Shown here one piece after another: positions 348-19,798 of a stretch of DNA of 33,108 bases. Both the position numbers and the translations under genes were made by a program. The stretch covers positions 1 to 33,108 of the forward strand of contig JAPLMD010000051.1 of assembly GCA_026387235.1 (NCBI GenBank), in the 5' to 3' direction. Positions within the stretch are counted from its first letter, which is position 1; the number at the start of each line of letters is the position of its first letter. Source of the DNA: Candidatus Omnitrophota bacterium. GTDB taxonomy: Bacteria > Omnitrophota > Gorgyraeia > Gorgyraeales > Gorgyraeaceae. The notes under the pieces were generated by a model, which made no database searches, was not told the DNA's origin, and worked only from the letters and a program-made list of their open reading frames with translations.

Positions 348-424
348 TGGTCGGGACGGCTGGATTCGAACCAGCGACCCCCTGAACCCCATTCAGGTGC
401 GCTAGCCATCTGCGCCACGCCCCG
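348..424 (-). tRNA. tRNA-Pro (anticodon GGG)
   Basis: The 77-nt gene folds as a full cloverleaf on the minus strand. Its acceptor stem is CGGGGCG paired with CGTCCCG, with A73 and an encoded CCA end. The D stem is GCGC/GCGC, the anticodon stem CCTGA/TCAGG holds loop ATGGGGT, and the T arm is GCTGG-TTCGAAT-CCAGC. The loop gives anticodon GGG, which reads CCC and CCU. The C1-G72 pair with A73 is the usual bacterial tRNA-Pro identity pattern, and the anticodon arm closely resembles that of E. coli tRNA-Pro(GGG). Confidence 0.97.
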
Positions 425-2589: not shown

Positions 2590-2911
2590 AAGGAACTGCG
2601 CTAAGGCGTTTTTGAGGTATCTTCTTGCTACAAGAGATGCATAGTCCGAATTTACCCTCTTCCATGCGCTTCAATGCATCATCGATCTCGTATATAATCT
2701 CCTGCTCTTCGCCGGCAATATTCAAGCTCAGTTCTCTGTCATAGCTATCGCTTGCCATATCCGCCATGTGAAAGCTGTAACCGGATAAATCCCCCGACGA
2801 TTCTTTCTGGGATTTCAGGCTCTCCTTGGCTATATGATTTATATCGCCATTGATTGTTTCTCTCACCTTTATTAAAAGCCTCTTGTATTTTGCCAGTTCT
2901 AACTTAGTCAT
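2540..2911 (-). CDS. TraR/DksA family C4 zinc-finger protein
   Basis: The C-terminus has the four-cysteine zinc finger of the DksA/TraR family: CISC at 91-94 and CIQC at 112-115, with LSAVPYAKYC between. The preceding segment GEEQEIIYEIDDALKRMEEG is the family's helical region. DksA proteins enter the RNA polymerase secondary channel and act with ppGpp. At 123 residues it is closer to the short YocK/TraR-like members than to E. coli DksA (151), so I do not assign the dksA symbol. The start ATG overlaps the ileS stop as ATGA, implying translational coupling. Placement between ileS and lspA recurs in other bacteria as I recall. Confidence 0.88.
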   Translation of the reverse strand: MTKLELAKYKRLLIKVRETINGDINHIAKESLKSQKESSGDLSGYSFHMADMASDSYDRELSLNIAGEEQEIIYEIDDALKRMEEGKFGLCISCSKKIPQKRLSAVPYAKYCIQCKSEEEKKK

Positions 2912-5688
2912 TTTGTTTTATCCTCCGTTACAACATCGATGCATCTCTCGCAAAGTGTTGGATTGTTTCTATCCTCTCCAACTAACGCGCTCCAGTTCCA
3001 GCAACGGCTGCATTTTTTACCGCCTGCCTTCGTAACCTGGATATATTTTTTATCTCCTATTGCAATCTCTACCTGCGAGACTATGAATATATAACGTAAA
3101 ATTGCCTGGTAACTATTTAAGAATTCGTATTCTTCTGTGTCGGCTGTAACCAGCTTCACTTTAGCTTCAAGAGGACTGCCTATTAATTTAGCGATCCTTT
3201 TTTCTTCAAGGGCTTTTAAAACATCTTCCCTCAGCTGTATCAACCTCTGCCATCTGGCCTCGAGCTCAGTATCAATCAGATTGCTCTCTAGCTTCGGCCA
3301 ATCCGCAAGATGCACCGAGCCAGCTTTATTAAAATAACCCCATATCTCTTCTGCTGTAAACGGAATTATAGGAGCCATCTGCCTTGTGAGAACACTTAAA
3401 ATTTTATAAAGAGCTGTCTGGCCGGACCTCCTGGCCTTTGAACTAGCCCCAAAAGTATACAACCTATCCTTTAAAATATCAAGATAAAAATTTGACATGT
3501 CAAGTATGCAGAATTTATAGATGGAACTCGCGGCTTCATGAAACATAAACTTTTCAAATGAATCCGTAACTTCCTTGAGAACGGAATTCAGCCTGGAAAA
3601 AGCCCACCTGTCAATCTCAAACAAATCCTTGTTGGCTACTGAGTCTTTTTCCGGGTCAAAATCATAAAGATTGCCGAGAAGGTATTTCGCGGTATTCCTG
3701 AATTTACGATACGCTTCCACGGTGCGGTCTAAAATCTCTTCCGAAACCCTGACATCGTCAAAATAAGACGACGAACTTACCCAGAGCCTCAGTACGTCCG
3801 CGCCTTTTTTAGAAATTATTTCCTGCGGACTTACCACGTTGCCGGCTGATTTTGACATCTTCTTGCCTTCGCCATCTACTACAAAACCATGCGTAAGCAC
3901 GTTCTTGAACGGGGATTTTGCCTCAATTCCCATCCCGATCAAAATAGAAGTCTGGAACCAGCCTCTGTGCTGATCGCTGCCTTCCAGATACAGATCAGCA
4001 GGGAAACCAAGCCCCTTATTTATCCTGAGGACTCCCTGATGACTCGCGCCTGATTCAAACCAGACGTCAAGTATGTCTGTTTCCTTTTTGAATTCATTGC
4101 CGCCGCACTTTTTACATTTGAAGCCATCCGGCATGAAACTCTTTGCGTCTTTAGAAAACCAGGAATCAGAACCCAGGCTGCCGAAAATATCTTCTATGTT
4201 TTTCATCACCCGGCTGTCTATCACTTCTGAATTACATGAAACGCAATATAAAATAGGTATGGGCACGCCCCAGTAGCGCTGCCTTGAAAGGCACCAGTCA
4301 GGCCGCAGCTCTATCATGCTGGAGATGCGTTTTTCGCCTGCATCAGGTATCCATTTTACGCTCTTTATTTCATCTAGAGTTTTCTGCCTCAGGCCGAGTC
4401 TATCTACCCCAAGGAACCATTGTTTTGTGGCGCGGAATAAAAGCGGCGAATGGCAGCGCCAGCAATATGGATACGAATGTTCCGTCCTCGCTGATATCAA
4501 AAGGGCTTTTTTATCCGACAGGATCTTTAAGACAATATCATTGGCCTCCAATATCGGCTTGCCTACGATTTCATCGGGAACTTCGAATGAATCTATTTTT
4601 TTAAACCTGCCCTTTTCATCCACAGGCATGACAATCGGCAGATTATACTTTAATCCGACTTCATAGTCTTCCTGGCCATGGCCCGGGGCAATGTGAACGC
4701 AGCCTGTTCCATCTTCATTTGAAACATAATCCGCCAATACAACCTTTGAGGAGCGGTTTAAAAAAGGATGGCTAGCTGTCATGCCTTCTAATTCTCTGCC
4801 TTTTACTGTTTTTACGACGTTGCCGCTTACGCCGAGTTTTTTAAGCACGGTTTCCAGGAGGTCCTGGCACAATATTAAAGTTCCATGGCTATCGGTTTCG
4901 ACAAACACGTATGCGAGGTCAGGATGAACAGCTATTGCCACGTTTGAAACAAGCGTCCAAGGCGTAGTTGTCCAGACGAGAAAAAATAACTCACCTGGCC
5001 CACCTGTCAGGTGAGCCAATTGGCTCACCTGACAGGTGGATTCGGTATGAAATCTAACATATATAGACGGGGAGGTATGATCTTCGTATTCAACCTCAGC
5101 CTCTGCAAGAGCGGTTTCGCATTTTGCACACCAGTTTATAGGCTTAAGGCCCCGATAAATAAAGCCGCCCTGCACGAGTTTATTGAAACTCGCCACTACC
5201 GCCTTTTCGTATTCCGGTTTAAGGGTAAGATACGGATTATCCCAATCCCCGAAAACCCCAAGTCTTTCAAATTCAGCCTTCTGGATTTCTACAAATTTCA
5301 TTGCGAATTCATGCGCCATTTTTCTGAACCTTACCTGATCCACGTCGTGCTTTGTCTTTTTCATTTCCTTAAAAAGCTGATGCTCAATAGGCATGCCGTG
5401 GCAATCCCATCCTGGGACATAGGGCGCGTCATACCCTCGCATTGTTTTAAACTTTATGACTATATCTTTAAAGGTTTTATTCAAAGCGTGGCCTATGTGG
5501 ATATTCCCATTCGCGTATGGCGGGCCGTCGTGGAGTATGTATTTCGGCTTGCCTTTCTGCTTTTCCCTTATCATTTTATAAAGATCCATCTTTTCCCATT
5601 TTTCGAGAATGACAGGTTCTTCATCAGGAAGATTGGCCTTCATCGGAAAATCAGTCCTGGGCAGATTTAAAGTATTCTTATATTCCAT
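2908..5688 (-). CDS. ileS: Isoleucine-tRNA ligase carrying an in-frame palindromic insert
   Basis: It charges tRNA-Ile and edits misactivated valine. Class I signatures are PPYANGNIHIGH (56-67) and GEGKKMSKSAGN (KMSKS near 610-614). The editing-domain motif VWTTTPWTL lies near 238-246, the anticodon-binding domain follows, and a C-terminal zinc ribbon shows CSRCW...CERC. The length of 926 residues is normal. Residues 217-230 (STCQVSQLAHLTGG) are encoded by a perfect 40-bp palindrome, sitting between the YVRF strand and the editing motif, at a point where the family varies in length. The frame is intact, so the enzyme is probably functional. The gene starts one base after the mtnP stop and ends in an ATGA overlap with the DksA-like gene. 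Confidence 0.97.
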   Translation of the reverse strand: MEYKNTLNLPRTDFPMKANLPDEEPVILEKWEKMDLYKMIREKQKGKPKYILHDGPPYANGNIHIGHALNKTFKDIVIKFKTMRGYDAPYVPGWDCHGMPIEHQLFKEMKKTKHDVDQVRFRKMAHEFAMKFVEIQKAEFERLGVFGDWDNPYLTLKPEYEKAVVASFNKLVQGGFIYRGLKPINWCAKCETALAEAEVEYEDHTSPSIYVRFHTESTCQVSQLAHLTGGPGELFFLVWTTTPWTLVSNVAIAVHPDLAYVFVETDSHGTLILCQDLLETVLKKLGVSGNVVKTVKGRELEGMTASHPFLNRSSKVVLADYVSNEDGTGCVHIAPGHGQEDYEVGLKYNLPIVMPVDEKGRFKKIDSFEVPDEIVGKPILEANDIVLKILSDKKALLISARTEHSYPYCWRCHSPLLFRATKQWFLGVDRLGLRQKTLDEIKSVKWIPDAGEKRISSMIELRPDWCLSRQRYWGVPIPILYCVSCNSEVIDSRVMKNIEDIFGSLGSDSWFSKDAKSFMPDGFKCKKCGGNEFKKETDILDVWFESGASHQGVLRINKGLGFPADLYLEGSDQHRGWFQTSILIGMGIEAKSPFKNVLTHGFVVDGEGKKMSKSAGNVVSPQEIISKKGADVLRLWVSSSSYFDDVRVSEEILDRTVEAYRKFRNTAKYLLGNLYDFDPEKDSVANKDLFEIDRWAFSRLNSVLKEVTDSFEKFMFHEAASSIYKFCILDMSNFYLDILKDRLYTFGASSKARRSGQTALYKILSVLTRQMAPIIPFTAEEIWGYFNKAGSVHLADWPKLESNLIDTELEARWQRLIQLREDVLKALEEKRIAKLIGSPLEAKVKLVTADTEEYEFLNSYQAILRYIFIVSQVEIAIGDKKYIQVTKAGGKKCSRCWNWSALVGEDRNNPTLCERCIDVVTEDKTK
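5000..5039. repeat. Palindromic element family A, copy 1 (inside ileS, translated)
   Basis: This is a perfect 40-bp palindrome: the left arm CCACCTGTCAGGTGAGCCAA is exactly the reverse complement of the right arm. Each arm also contains a small nested palindrome, CACCTGNCAGGTG. It shares 36 of 40 bases with the core of the murB-ddl copy. Two of the four differences are paired (T-A versus C-G), preserving the stem. On the minus strand it is read in frame as part of ileS without a stop. A further CTCACCTGG lies just outside at 4990-4998. Confidence 0.92.
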
Positions 5689-8181: not shown

Positions 8182-8241
8182 TTCTCGACTCTCCGCCTAC
8201 GGCGGATTGCTCGAAGAATATTGTTCGAGCGAAGTCGAGAA
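8182..8241. repeat. Palindromic element family B, copy 1 (ftsQ-ftsA spacer)
   Basis: Outer arms TTCTCGACT (8182-8190) and AGTCGAGAA (8233-8241) enclose two hairpins: TCCGCC-TAC-GGCGGA (8192-8206) and GCTCGAA...TTCGAGC (8209-8230) around AATATT. The whole can fold as a three-way structure. It is 60 bp long, a multiple of three, and five of its six frames are free of stops. It matches the murE copy in the opposite orientation at 56 of 60 aligned bases. It takes up most of the 87-bp gap between ftsQ and ftsA and ends close to the ftsA ribosome-binding site. Confidence 0.88.
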
Positions 8242-8252
8242 CAATTTTAATA

Positions 8253-9074
8253 TTACCTAGGCCCCACTATCGGGTCCTCAAAACGTAAATCAATATATTT
8301 TACTCTATCTATATCCCGGCCCAGCTGCTCCAGCACCGTAGCGAGCACGTCCAGCCTTTTATTAAATTCAGATTCGCCTATCTTTATTTCTACTTTTTCC
8401 GCATCGCTGGCATTGAGAAAAAAAGATATGTTACGGCTGTCGGCTATATCTATTGTTTTTATTTTGTATCCTGAAAGTTTTCTATTCACTGACAGCGCAT
8501 ATATAAGGAATAATGCCTTATTAATCTTTTCCTTCTGGACCGAACTGCCTCTAAAGGGACTAACCCTAATCCCGGAAATAAGGGGGATGCCTTCCCCGCT
8601 ATTTTTCGTATCTGTCAGAAAAACACCATCTTTGTCTATAAGATACAGCCTGTCACCGTAAATTTGAGCTACAGGCAGCCTTCTTCTCGCCTGAACAATC
8701 AATTTATTGGGTAACGCGCGTCTAACGACAATGTCTCTTAATTCAGGATGTTTAAGCTCTATTCTATCTTTAAAGTTCTTAAGGTCCACTAAAAATATAT
8801 TGGATCCCAAAACATCTTTGTCTTCAATATCGCTAAAACTTGCCCTGTGCAACACATTCTTCTCGTCATAAAATCTGACATCCAGGCCTTTAACGTTAAA
8901 ACTATCGGAATCCACAAACATGTACTGAAACGCTACAATGCCTGCGCCGATGAGCGCTACAAGAAGCGTCCAAAAAATAAATTTAATAACGCCTTTAAAA
9001 TTACGCTTTGCTCTAGGCTGAGGTTCTCTCTTTTTTTTGTGCGGATGAACCTTTTGTTTTTTTATTTTTACCAT
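8253..9074 (-). CDS. ftsQ: Cell-division protein FtsQ (POTRA domain)
   Basis: It is a bitopic inner-membrane scaffold of the divisome. A basic cytoplasmic stretch (MVKIKKQKVHPHKKKR onward) precedes one membrane helix at about residues 28-50. A periplasmic POTRA-like segment follows, with VKGLDVRF, LGSNIFLVDL, RRALPNKLIVQARRRLPVAQ, then the FtsQ beta region with YLIDKDGVFL. The size of 273 residues is normal. ATG 9074 overlaps the ddl stop by 7 nt. The order ddl-ftsQ-ftsA is the standard dcw order. The end is followed by family B element copy 1. Confidence 0.9.
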   Translation of the reverse strand: MVKIKKQKVHPHKKKREPQPRAKRNFKGVIKFIFWTLLVALIGAGIVAFQYMFVDSDSFNVKGLDVRFYDEKNVLHRASFSDIEDKDVLGSNIFLVDLKNFKDRIELKHPELRDIVVRRALPNKLIVQARRRLPVAQIYGDRLYLIDKDGVFLTDTKNSGEGIPLISGIRVSPFRGSSVQKEKINKALFLIYALSVNRKLSGYKIKTIDIADSRNISFFLNASDAEKVEIKIGESEFNKRLDVLATVLEQLGRDIDRVKYIDLRFEDPIVGPR

Positions 9075-10012
9075 GCGGAGTTCAAAATTTTAAGGCAGAG
9101 GTCTTCAAAGCTGATTCCTATAGACTTTGCCGCCTTCGGCAGAAGACTTGTCTGGGTAAAGCCCGGTATGGTATTTATTTCCAATACCACAGGCCCCATC
9201 TTCTCATTCAATATAATATCCACGCGCGAAAATGACCTGGCTGAAAGAACCTTATGAGCCCTCAGACCAGCGTCCTGGCACATCTTATACGTCTTTTCAT
9301 CTATCCGGGCAGGCACAATATATTCAGTCATGCCCTTTTCGTATTTAGCGGTAAAATCAAAAAATTTTCTTTTCGGCACAATCTCTACAATCGGCAAAGC
9401 ACTGTCTTCTATTATGCCCACTGTAATTTCTCTGCCGGGAATATACTCCTCTATAATCAATTTATCGTCGTATCTAAACGCGTCATCAATAGCTATCTTT
9501 AAATCTTTCTCGTTACCCGCTATATTCAGGCCTATGCTGGATCCGCCATTTGAAGGTTTTACAACAAGGCTTGAGCCGAGCGATTTAAAATACGCATTTA
9601 TATCGCAGTTTTTATTAAGACTGCTCCTGGACAGAACTTCATGCCTGGCAATCGGTATATTATTCGACTTAAATACTTCCTTTGCCGTAATTTTATTCAT
9701 CGCGACCTTAGAGGCAGCGGACGAACTTCCTGTATAAGGTATATTCATTTCCTCAAGCAATTGCTGCACTGTGCCGTCTTCTCCGAATTCTCCGTGAAGC
9801 GCTATAAATGCCACGTCTATTTTCATGCGGGTTATCAGCGCAGAGACTGCTTTTTTATAGCCGTTCGTATTTGAACCTGACATGAGCTCCACGGGCACGT
9901 AATCTATCTGCTTTGCTTCAAGCGCTTTACAGACTGCCTTGCCAGATTTTATAGAAATCTCCCTTTCAGAAGAAGGCCCGCCCATCAATACGCCTACGCG
10001 TTTATTTTTCAT
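9068..10012 (-). CDS. ddl: D-alanine--D-alanine ligase
   Basis: This ATP-grasp enzyme joins two D-alanines for the pentapeptide stem. It opens with the N-terminal VGVLMGGPSSEREISIKSG and shows ALHGEFGEDGTVQQLLE, PYTGSSSAAS, VVKPSNGGSSIGL and C-terminal EINTIPGFTQTSLLPKAA with the Mg-binding Glu/Asn. It is 314 residues, normal for the DdlB type. The start ATG 10012 sits just after the family A palindrome. The outer arm supplies AAGG about nine bases before the ATG, the only ribosome-binding-like sequence there, so the palindrome could affect ddl translation. Confidence 0.95.
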   Translation of the reverse strand: MKNKRVGVLMGGPSSEREISIKSGKAVCKALEAKQIDYVPVELMSGSNTNGYKKAVSALITRMKIDVAFIALHGEFGEDGTVQQLLEEMNIPYTGSSSAASKVAMNKITAKEVFKSNNIPIARHEVLSRSSLNKNCDINAYFKSLGSSLVVKPSNGGSSIGLNIAGNEKDLKIAIDDAFRYDDKLIIEEYIPGREITVGIIEDSALPIVEIVPKRKFFDFTAKYEKGMTEYIVPARIDEKTYKMCQDAGLRAHKVLSARSFSRVDIILNEKMGPVVLEINTIPGFTQTSLLPKAAKSIGISFEDLCLKILNSAW

Positions 10013-10020
10013 AATCCATT

Positions 10021-10076
10021 ACCTTGGTCCACCTGCCAGGTGAGCCATCTGGCTCACCTGGCAGGTGGACCAAGGT
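10021..10076. repeat. Palindromic element family A, copy 2 (murB-ddl spacer)
   Basis: Two perfect 27-bp arms (10021-10047 and 10050-10076) flank a 2-base centre. The inner 40 bp match the ileS copy at 36 positions, and the arms extend further with ACCTTGGT/ACCAAGGT. It starts directly at the murB stop and fills nearly the whole 64-bp spacer. No T-run follows on the minus strand, so it does not look like a classical terminator. The arm carries the AAGG that may serve ddl. Confidence 0.93.
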
Positions 10077-10955
10077 TTACAGTATCTTTAATTCAAGTTC
10101 TAAGTCCATGCCGAATTTTTGGCGAACGCTCGTTTTCGCCAAATCTATCAGACCAAGGACGTCATTTGCCTTTGCCCTGCCAAGGTTCACTATAATATTT
10201 GCGTGAACCTTGGAAATCTCAGCTCCGCCTATCCTCCTGCCTTTTAAGCCGCAGGATTCTATCAGCATACCTGCCGGTTTATCAAGGCAGGGATTTTTAA
10301 ATATACTGCCTGCGTTCGGAAAACCTATTTTAATAAACCACTCCCGTTTTTTATTAAACGCTTTTATTTTATCCTCAATATTCTCTTTTTTGTCTTTTTT
10401 CAGCTTAAGCCTGGCTCCTAAAATAACTTTTCCATCCAGGCCTGAATAACGATATTTAAAATCTATGTCTTTTCTGCTTAAAGTTTTTATCTTCCCGCTT
10501 TTTAAATCTAAAACTTCCGCGTCAAGAAGTATATCTTTTATCTCGTCGAATTTAGCAGGATCTTCCAGGCTTCTCGCGCCCGCGTTCATGAAAATCGCGC
10601 CGCCAACATTGCCAGGAATTCCGGTTAAAAATTCGCAACCTCCCAGACCCAGATCTAAAGCATATTTTACCAGCTTTGCCGCGCTAAGCCCTGCGCCTAT
10701 CTTTATTATTTCTTCGCCTTCTTTTTCTCTTTTTTCAAAACCTTTGGTCAGGCAAATTATTACGCCGTCAAATCCCTCATCTTTAACCAGCAGGTTCGTG
10801 CCTTTTCCTATTACGCTGAATTTTTTATTTTTGCTCTCTGCAAAAGAGACTGCTTCTAAAACGCCTTTCGGATTTTCAGGCTGCGCCCAGCAATACGCAG
10901 AGCCTCCTATCTTAAAACTCGTATGCCGGGATAATGGCTCATTATACCTTAGCAT
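10077..10955 (-). CDS. murB: UDP-N-acetylmuramate dehydrogenase
   Basis: This flavoenzyme reduces UDP-GlcNAc-enolpyruvate to UDP-MurNAc with NADPH. The FAD-binding region shows RHTSFKIGGSA, FSVIGKGTNLLVKDEGFDGVII, LTGIPGNVGGAIFMNAGA. The catalytic serine motif NAGSIFKNP and the substrate domain with GGAEISKVHANIIVN follow. The length of 292 residues fits the type II MurB group. ATG 10955 overlaps the murC end by 14 nt, and murC-murB-ddl is a typical order. MurA, which makes its substrate, is not in the window. Confidence 0.95.
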   Translation of the reverse strand: MLRYNEPLSRHTSFKIGGSAYCWAQPENPKGVLEAVSFAESKNKKFSVIGKGTNLLVKDEGFDGVIICLTKGFEKREKEGEEIIKIGAGLSAAKLVKYALDLGLGGCEFLTGIPGNVGGAIFMNAGARSLEDPAKFDEIKDILLDAEVLDLKSGKIKTLSRKDIDFKYRYSGLDGKVILGARLKLKKDKKENIEDKIKAFNKKREWFIKIGFPNAGSIFKNPCLDKPAGMLIESCGLKGRRIGGAEISKVHANIIVNLGRAKANDVLGLIDLAKTSVRQKFGMDLELELKIL

Positions 10956-18248: not shown

Positions 18249-19798
18249 AGTCCCGCCTCCCTTAAAATACGTTTTACAACTTCCTTATCGTCAAATGGAA
18301 CCATCGTGTCTTTAAATATCTGGTACGTCTCATGGCCTTTGCCAGCCACGAGCACGATGTCTCCTTCCCGAGCCTCAGCCAATGCCTTTTTAATGGCATT
18401 AAATCTATCCGGCTCAATCGCATAATTATCTTTTTTAAGGTCTATGCCCCTGGCAATCTCATTTATAATATCCATGGGCTCTTCATTTCTGGGATTATCG
18501 CTTGTGATAAACACCATGTCCGAAAGTTCCGTTGAAATCTTTCCCATCCTAGGCCTTTTAAATCTGTCGCGATTTCCGCCGCAGCCAAATACAGATATAA
18601 GTTTCCCGGGCTTTAATTCTCTCAGAGATTTAAGCACGTTCTCCAGCCCATCTTCTGTATGAGCGTAATCAACGTATACTGAAAAATTCTGGCCACAGCC
18701 GACACTCTCGAGTCTTCCCGGAAGGCCTTTCATAGCCTCTATGCCTTTCTCAACATTTTTCAAATCCATTCCTAACGTAATGGCCGCGGCAATACTTGCC
18801 AGGATATTATAGATATTGTGGCGGCCGATTAAACTTGAGTTTATATCAATGTACTTCTCGACTTCGTTCGCTTCGCTCACTCCGCTCGAAGAATATTGTT
18901 CGAGCGATCCGCCATAGGCGGAGAGTCGAGAACTAACAGAAAGTCTAAATTTCAGGCCATTGCAGGAAAGTTTTATATCTTCAGCCCTGATATCTGCTCT
19001 GCGGTTAATCCCGTATGTAATTACCTTTGCCTTGCCGTCAGATTTTATCTTTTCTATAATTTTCGCCGCGCTTGGATCATCTGTATTGATTATCGCAAAC
19101 CCGCCTTTTTTTATCTTTTCAAATAATTTCAGCTTCGCGTTCAGATAATCTTCCATGTTCTTATGAAAATCCAGGTGTTCCCTGGTAAGATTAGTAAATA
19201 TCGCTGCATCAAATTTCAAGGTCTCCACCCTTCCGAGTTCCAGAGAATGCGAAGAAACCTCCATCACGCAATTCTCTATCTTTTCCTTCTGCATGCTTGA
19301 TAAAAGTGAATAAAGCTCCAGCGTCCCGGGAGTGGTATTCACCGCAGGGATCAAGCGCCGGCCGAACCTGTAATTCACAGTGCCTATAATGCCCGCTTCT
19401 TGATTTATGAATTTAAATAAACTTTCCATGAGATACGTTATTGTAGTTTTGCCGTTTGTACCTGTAATACCTATGAGACGCATCTTGCCGGAGATATCTC
19501 CGAAATACGCCTGGCAGGCCAGGGCAAGCGCTAACCTGGCGTCTTTAGTATAGATGAACGTATCGCCTTTTTTAAAAATACCTTTATCGCAGGCATCAAG
19601 CAATATCGCGCTTGCGCCCCTCTCTATTGCCTCATCAATGAAATCCGCGCCGTTTACCTTTGAGCCTTTTAAGGCAGCGAATAAATACCCCGGCTTGACC
19701 GCCTTTGAATCGCAGGCTATGCCGCTTATCTCTAGGTTTGTTTTGCCGACTACTTTAACTATTCCGGTTAAATTATCAATGATTTTTTTTAGCTTCAA
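18224..19798 (-). CDS. murE: UDP-MurNAc-L-Ala-D-Glu--meso-diaminopimelate ligase with in-frame palindromic insert
   Basis: It adds the third stem residue. DNPR (434-437, in SDNPRNEEP) is the usual meso-DAP specificity motif, so a Gram-negative-type peptidoglycan is likely. The P-loop GITGTNGKTTITYL spans 110-123; NTTPGTLELYSLL, MEVSSHSLELGRV and VDYAHTEDGLENVL follow. At 524 residues it is longer than the usual 480-500. The excess is residues 289-315, encoded by a family B palindromic element between KFRLSV and INSSLIGRHN, at a probable strand-turn of the central domain. All catalytic motifs remain. The start overlaps ftsI by 23 nt. Confidence 0.97.
   Translation of the reverse strand: MKLKKIIDNLTGIVKVVGKTNLEISGIACDSKAVKPGYLFAALKGSKVNGADFIDEAIERGASAILLDACDKGIFKKGDTFIYTKDARLALALACQAYFGDISGKMRLIGITGTNGKTTITYLMESLFKFINQEAGIIGTVNYRFGRRLIPAVNTTPGTLELYSLLSSMQKEKIENCVMEVSSHSLELGRVETLKFDAAIFTNLTREHLDFHKNMEDYLNAKLKLFEKIKKGGFAIINTDDPSAAKIIEKIKSDGKAKVITYGINRRADIRAEDIKLSCNGLKFRLSVSSRLSAYGGSLEQYSSSGVSEANEVEKYIDINSSLIGRHNIYNILASIAAAITLGMDLKNVEKGIEAMKGLPGRLESVGCGQNFSVYVDYAHTEDGLENVLKSLRELKPGKLISVFGCGGNRDRFKRPRMGKISTELSDMVFITSDNPRNEEPMDIINEIARGIDLKKDNYAIEPDRFNAIKKALAEAREGDIVLVAGKGHETYQIFKDTMVPFDDKEVVKRILREAGLCLQSEMS
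18855..18932. repeat. Palindromic element family B, copy 2 (inside murE, translated)
   Basis: Outer arms TTCTCGACT (18855-18863) and AGTCGAGAA (18924-18932) enclose GCTCGAA...TTCGAGC (18884-18905) and TCCGCC-ATA-GGCGGA (18908-18922). The 78 bp equal 26 codons. Compared with the ftsQ-ftsA copy it is reversed and carries an extra 18 bp (GGAGTGAGCGAAGCGAAC on the minus strand), also a multiple of three. It is read in murE as SRLSAYGGSLEQYSSSGV and continues through SEANEVEK, a Ser-rich polar stretch unlike the rest of the protein. Confidence 0.9.

Follow-up and report, generated by a model that had tools for sequence, protein, structure and literature searches.

A REPIN-like palindrome between murB and ddl of an Omnitrophota genome, one of a dispersed family probably moved by a RAYT

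REPINs are inverted doublets of REP sequences that form hairpins, are linked to REP-associated tyrosine transposases (RAYTs) and frequently carry compensatory changes (PMC3116915). In vitro, a group 3 TnpA-REP depends on a perfect stem (PMC8266576). In TIRtrons (TIRYT), RAYT genes are flanked by inverted repeats unrelated to the GTAG REPs; in the same study REPs were mostly found 3' of genes, and intragenic REPs were also reported (PMC3733652). Rickettsia palindromic elements (RPEs) lie in frame within conserved genes (PMC2229807, PMC3767692). A literature search for palindromes or RAYTs of the Omnitrophota found no earlier report.

We have studied a palindrome in a stretch of 33,108 nt from an Omnitrophota bacterium (contig JAPLMD010000051.1; the window), together with its source genome (G000) and those of its relatives, both sister species and more distant ones, which bear the other G numbers. 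The palindrome belongs to a repeat family, termed family A, and lies between two genes of firm identity. The features are as follows.

10021..10076, no strand: family A element, a full palindrome of 27+2+27 nt with outer ends ACC...GGT
10021..10029, no strand: outer left arm, ACCTTGGTC, variable among copies and mostly complementary to the right arm
10030..10042, no strand: mini-palindrome 1, CACCTG-C-CAGGTG
10043..10054, no strand: apex AGCCA-TC-TGGCT, its centre differing in sequence and length among copies
10055..10067, no strand: mini-palindrome 2, CACCTG-G-CAGGTG
10068..10076, no strand: outer right arm, GACCAAGGT, directly adjoining the stop codon of murB
10077..10955, minus strand: murB, the upstream gene
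9068..10012, minus strand: ddl, the downstream gene
4996..5040, no strand: second family A copy of the window, in frame within ileS, adding about 14 codons, STCQVSQLAHLTGG
2908..5688, minus strand: ileS (isoleucyl-tRNA synthetase), host gene of the second copy

An inverted-repeat search of the window gave 27-nt arms (10021-10047 and 10050-10076) of 100% complementarity about a 2-nt centre. The first-pass annotation had described a 56-bp palindrome that fills the murB-ddl spacer and begins at the murB stop. This is indeed the case: it takes up the whole interval from that stop (TAA, minus strand 10079-10077) to the ddl start region, beginning at the base directly next to the stop. The reported match of 36 of 40 core bases to the ileS copy is reproduced on comparing 5000-5039 with 10029-10068; among the four differences T/C and A/G make a complementary pair and the other two are central, as had been claimed. 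Folding of the palindrome as RNA gave -60.2 kcal/mol (z = -12.6). No Rfam family matches the element, and the sole Rfam match in the window is a tRNA gene (351-424, minus strand). Elsewhere the window contains a second, inverted repeat pair (8182-8235 and 18879-18932; 54 nt, 91%) that includes TCCGCC-TAC-GGCGGA and CTCGAAGAATATTGTTCGAG, and CTCGAA/TTCGAG repeats resembling this pair occur in G004 and G014.

Searching the source genome (1.496 Mb, 69 contigs) with the arm sequence showed that the palindrome is far from unique. There are 23 complete family A copies and one partial copy (C40), a number in which badly decayed copies are under-counted since the copies were collected by sequence similarity. 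BLAST with family A finds about 25 places, and a half-arm pattern allowing up to 3 mismatches occurs 75 times over both arms and both strands, compared with 0 for the reversed control. A contig break seems to have cut one copy in two, leaving its halves at C12:8306 and C31:5; these were counted as one because, past the copy, C31 goes on as a continuation of the G006 orthologue. In a 433-kb sample of the genome, which does not contain every family A copy, 22 palindromes have arms of at least 14 nt, 14 of them family A, and the mirror-repeat control gave 0; the murB-ddl palindrome is thus not a product of chance. An assembly artefact was rejected: G009, which was assembled separately, has the ileS and fmt copies at the same positions. 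Exact family A matches in public contig records fall in four places, in Omnitrophota MAGs. Other species of the genus have from 0 to about 5 family A copies each, and outside the genus no exact family A was found among 47 relatives searched. One copy, at C62:48801, directly adjoins a tRNA-Arg(CCT) gene (locus L040, 1419-1495). A shortened family A palindrome without the apex (CCACCTGTCAGGTGG) is present at G000:C28:29660-29696, and may have arisen by internal deletion or be a form with a single hairpin.

Two of the G000 copies, at C62 44843-44896 and 45562-45609, bracket an intact Y1_Tnp open reading frame.

G000 C62:44903-45631, minus strand: Y1/HUH REP-associated tyrosine transposase (RAYT) gene, from a Y1_Tnp search over the genus

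The product matches Pfam Y1_Tnp above the cut-off, and scores 61.6 bits against NCBIfam NF047646 (REP_Tyr_transpos), below the cut-off of 80. Its clade has the three marks of a RAYT (TnpA-REP). An HUH motif (H80xH82) and the catalytic tyrosine (Tyr140) are invariant across the aligned transposases, and kinship to TnpA-REP is seen in a profile search, in which E. coli TnpA-REP (4ER8) was the only solved relative (E = 9e-5). Clade relatives at 64-71% identity are found in G006, G014 and G007. All four loci (G000 C62, G006 C32, G014 C28 and G007 C47) are bracketed by palindromes that differ in sequence and share the same plan, and the partial gene of G005 has a palindrome on its intact side. The G006 palindrome exists in only two copies, both of which bracket the transposase, and is found nowhere else in 19 genomes of the family; amplification is therefore not general. 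That of G014 occurs in three places, two of them bracketing the transposase.

Across the class the clade is present in 29 of 117 genomes. At 30 loci a palindrome lies 5' in 13, 3' in 13 and on both sides in 10, set against a background of about 0.02 per flank; 14 loci scored none on either side at the threshold used, which may miss weak or imperfect hairpins. In more distant relatives the transposase is often bracketed by a single hairpin, GTCC-CACCT-n-AGGTG-GGAC, and in others by doublets or triplets, a range of forms suggesting that an older single hairpin may have been doubled, in inverted form, to give family A. The triplet-nested palindromes that flank the transposase in the distant relatives G099 (L328) and G079 (L331) suggest stepwise inverted duplication. 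Four sister species (G001, G004, G008 and G010) have no clade transposase at the threshold used yet contain nested palindromes, so one has to suppose that their transposase was lost or is of another kind. Other palindrome families of the genus (the GTAG, TTGACAC, TGCTCAAGACC and TGGTGCCAGGCAC types) adjoin other Y1 genes, and Y1 genes at L154, L155, L153, L164, L159 and L160 are bracketed by, or adjacent to, distinct palindrome families of their own.

With a probability of about 0.8, and judging from sequence comparison, we consider the murB-ddl palindrome to be a copy of a REPIN-like element that is non-autonomous and that the C62 RAYT moves in trans. Family A was very probably spread by this gene that two of its copies bracket. 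The element is an inverted doublet of the short hairpin CACCTG-N-CAGGTG with ends ACC...GGT, and we infer that the transposase recognizes the folded single-strand hairpin and moves copies of it. The arms might be kept matched because only perfectly folding copies are mobilized, because one arm templates the other during copying of the hairpin, or through both. Surviving copies would be the tolerated insertions, either just 3' of stop codons or in frame within length-variable stretches of protein. Mobility is read here from the comparison of species rather than from lineages followed in real time.

In the inner stem of the 23 copies (18 pairs each, 414 cells), 404 cells have the consensus pair and 10 a paired change, and a change in one arm alone is never seen. 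All 10 fall at the central N of CACCTG-N-CAGGTG, which is C/G in 13 copies, T/A in seven and A/T in three; whichever of C, T or A occupies the centre of mini-palindrome 1, mini-palindrome 2 is always altered to match. The outer arms are variable, and are matched more often than shuffled arms, pairing being lost outward. When they are included there are 24 paired changes compared with 9.7 ± 2.7 in shuffles, and none of 1000 shuffles reached 24. The earlier proposal that selection or copying of a hairpin, and not a chance word, underlies the pattern is upheld by these counts, and by the dispersed mobile family with its bracketed transposase.

Between species the picture is mixed. The orthologous alaS copies of G000 and G006 have a paired difference (GTTC..GAAC versus GTCC..GGAC), which gives a different amino acid on either side (F/S and E/G), plus one unpaired change. 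At miaB, G000 and G004 both carry family A with two paired differences, and in the ilvD-ilvB copy common to G000 and G008 the central pair has changed together. The C57 reading frame has family A in G000 and a CACCCCGTAGGTG variant in G004; since the outer arms match closely, the change seems to be a paired one made in place. The miaB and C57 pairs might also represent two variants that inserted independently at one spot. Two unpaired changes are present in the G009 copy at mtnA, and decay is seen in the fmt copies of G004 and G008. Both paired and unpaired evolution thus happen between species; given some unpaired decay in the orthologous copies at mtnA, fmt and alaS, maintenance of the stem is not strict everywhere. 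The expectation that the two arms vary together was thus borne out within G000, and between species it held only in part.

Still assuming a mobile element, the paired changes might be due only to arm-to-arm correction of quasi-palindromes by template switching during replication, the transposase having no role in the matching of the arms. The in-place paired changes between orthologous copies speak for this, as does the observation that different alaS palindrome families start at the same base. Against it, the outer arms of the same copies decay unpaired, and so does the G009 mtnA copy at two positions. We regard this as possible, and somewhat doubtful.

Comparison of sites in the relatives argues for movement. 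The murB-ddl junction has no element in G002, G006, G009 and G010, where the murB stop overlaps the ddl start, and other palindromes are present in G008 and G011. In the G008 spacer (L070) a GTAG palindrome interrupts a different nested palindrome, one element family lying inside another. At ileS the same copy is found in G009, no element in G001, G003 and G010, and other palindromes in G004 and G007. At alaS, G006 also has family A, while G003, G004 and G010 have other palindromes that start at the same base. G008 carries another palindrome at miaB, where empty sites are also found among the relatives. The C57 site is empty in G006 and G008, the ilvD-ilvB site is empty in G010, and relatives have empty sites at C12 and further loci. 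The insertion spot in mtnA carries a GTCATTGCGAGCGAAGCGAAGCAATCTC-type repeat instead in G003 (L199). Since loci of sister species are empty, carry the same copy or carry a different palindrome, the elements evidently move or turn over.

The positions of the copies are strongly skewed. Coding sequence makes up about 91% of the sampled G000, yet only 6 of 23 copies are inside genes, all in frame (in ileS, alaS, fmt, miaB, mtnA and a 670-aa reading frame with an lpxL-like N-terminal part), and the other 17 are extragenic. Some 13-14 of the 23 lie no more than 15 nt 3' of a stop codon, where 1.2% would be expected. These positions fit purifying selection on tolerated insertions. The strong crowding of copies into the 15 nt that follow a stop, the very stable fold, and the in-place paired differences in orthologues (alaS G000/G006, ilvD-ilvB G000/G008 and the C57 reading frame G000/G004) might also be taken to indicate a functional RNA hairpin (an mRNA stabilizer, an RNase III site or a regulator of ddl) that selection favours where it stands at every locus, with mobility secondary. 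We think this improbable. Many relatives lack an element at the same junction, and at a single site both sequence and family vary by species. Six copies are within reading frames, in which an RNA stem-loop of 40 bases would hardly be of advantage, unpaired decay is seen in the copies at mtnA and fmt, and Rfam offers no matching family.

The short, dispersed, non-autonomous character of family A and its inverted repeats with recurrent ACC...GGT ends would also suit a MITE derived from a DDE insertion sequence and moved by the transposase of the latter via terminal inverted repeats. In the clearest empty and filled pairs, judged by eye, there is however no constant target duplication and there are no TA ends, the bracketed transposase is of the Y1/HUH type and not DDE, and an unsystematic look encountered no DDE element with ACC...GGT ends; this origin was rejected as very improbable. 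A family of intrinsic transcription terminators, for which hairpins just 3' of stop codons might be cited, is scarcely credible and was likewise rejected, as the stems of family A copies have no U-run on their 3' side and copies lie inside operons and reading frames.

Insertion of the REPIN-like element at murB-ddl would have separated genes that overlap in the relatives. The first-pass annotation was correct that its arm carries the AAGG near the ddl start: on the ddl strand (minus, 10025-10022) this motif, from the outer left arm, is 9 nt ahead of the ATG (10012), and no better Shine-Dalgarno sequence is visible before that start. The hairpin is not needed for murB-ddl, because G002, G006, G009 and G010 have the stop overlapping the start and no element; any role in ddl translation or RNA processing, as the annotation had put forward, would thus have been gained after insertion. 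Given that several other junction copies also put AAGG or AGG 4-10 nt ahead of the next start codon, a Shine-Dalgarno role for the arm is possible, but secondary. The inserted arm may now serve ddl in this way, and its AAGG might lie hidden in the stem until a ribosome halting at the murB stop releases it.

How does family A compare with the described systems? Like REPINs (PMC3116915) it is an inverted doublet of a small palindrome, with CACCTG-N-CAGGTG twice inverted in one long hairpin, it is dispersed and linked to a cognate RAYT, and it has compensatory changes across the hairpin. Unlike them it is a palindrome that is almost perfect, measures about 40-56 bp and has a very short spacer, roughly one copy in four is in frame in a gene, there are about 24 copies and not hundreds, and the host is an omnitrophotan. 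The GTAG/CGTC tetranucleotide at the foot of the repeat is on no family A copy in G000, which end in ACC...GGT; a classic GTAG REP was rejected for this reason, and we call family A REPIN-like. As in TIRtrons (PMC3733652), a Y1 tyrosine transposase gene is flanked on both sides by non-GTAG/CGTC inverted repeats (in G000, G006, G014 and G007, and at 10 of 30 loci class-wide), some of them self-complementary. Some TIRtrons have a flanking repeat that is also dispersed, at moderate abundance, in the genome, and this is seen in G000, with about 24 copies, the repeats of G006 and G014 numbering only two and three. In contrast to TIRtrons, a single clade here has several species-specific palindromes of nested design with ACC...GGT ends, in-frame insertion is frequent, and the system is spread over a class of Omnitrophota. 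With RPEs (PMC2229807, PMC3767692) family A shares in-frame palindromes in conserved genes and orthologues with different families at or near the same site. RPEs, however, are 105-146 bp long and belong to the Rickettsiales, with no cognate transposase reported in those two papers, whereas family A is 40-56 bp and RAYT-linked. Each part has a close precedent (REPIN/RAYT, TIRtron, RPE); for their combination in Omnitrophota, where in-frame insertion is frequent and sites are reused, the literature search gave no report.

A more speculative extension, which we consider unlikely, is suggested by the different alaS palindrome families that begin at the same base. Species-specific nested palindromes of one RAYT clade might replace one another at the same tolerated spots, such that exchange of elements or in-place paired conversion would repeatedly rewrite post-stop junctions and the in-frame segments of core enzymes, the aminoacyl-tRNA synthetases among them. 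Junction copies might then re-couple translation, a ribosome at the upstream stop opening the stem and exposing the Shine-Dalgarno sequence of the right arm.

The findings extend RAYT-driven dispersal of palindromes, on our preferred reading, to the uncultured phylum Omnitrophota. They join two usually separate puzzles, the RAYT-linked REPINs, which are mostly extragenic, and the RPE-like in-frame palindromes of core genes. The single-hairpin, doublet and triplet forms that lie beside one transposase clade provide a natural series bearing on the origin of REPINs and on the matching of their arms.
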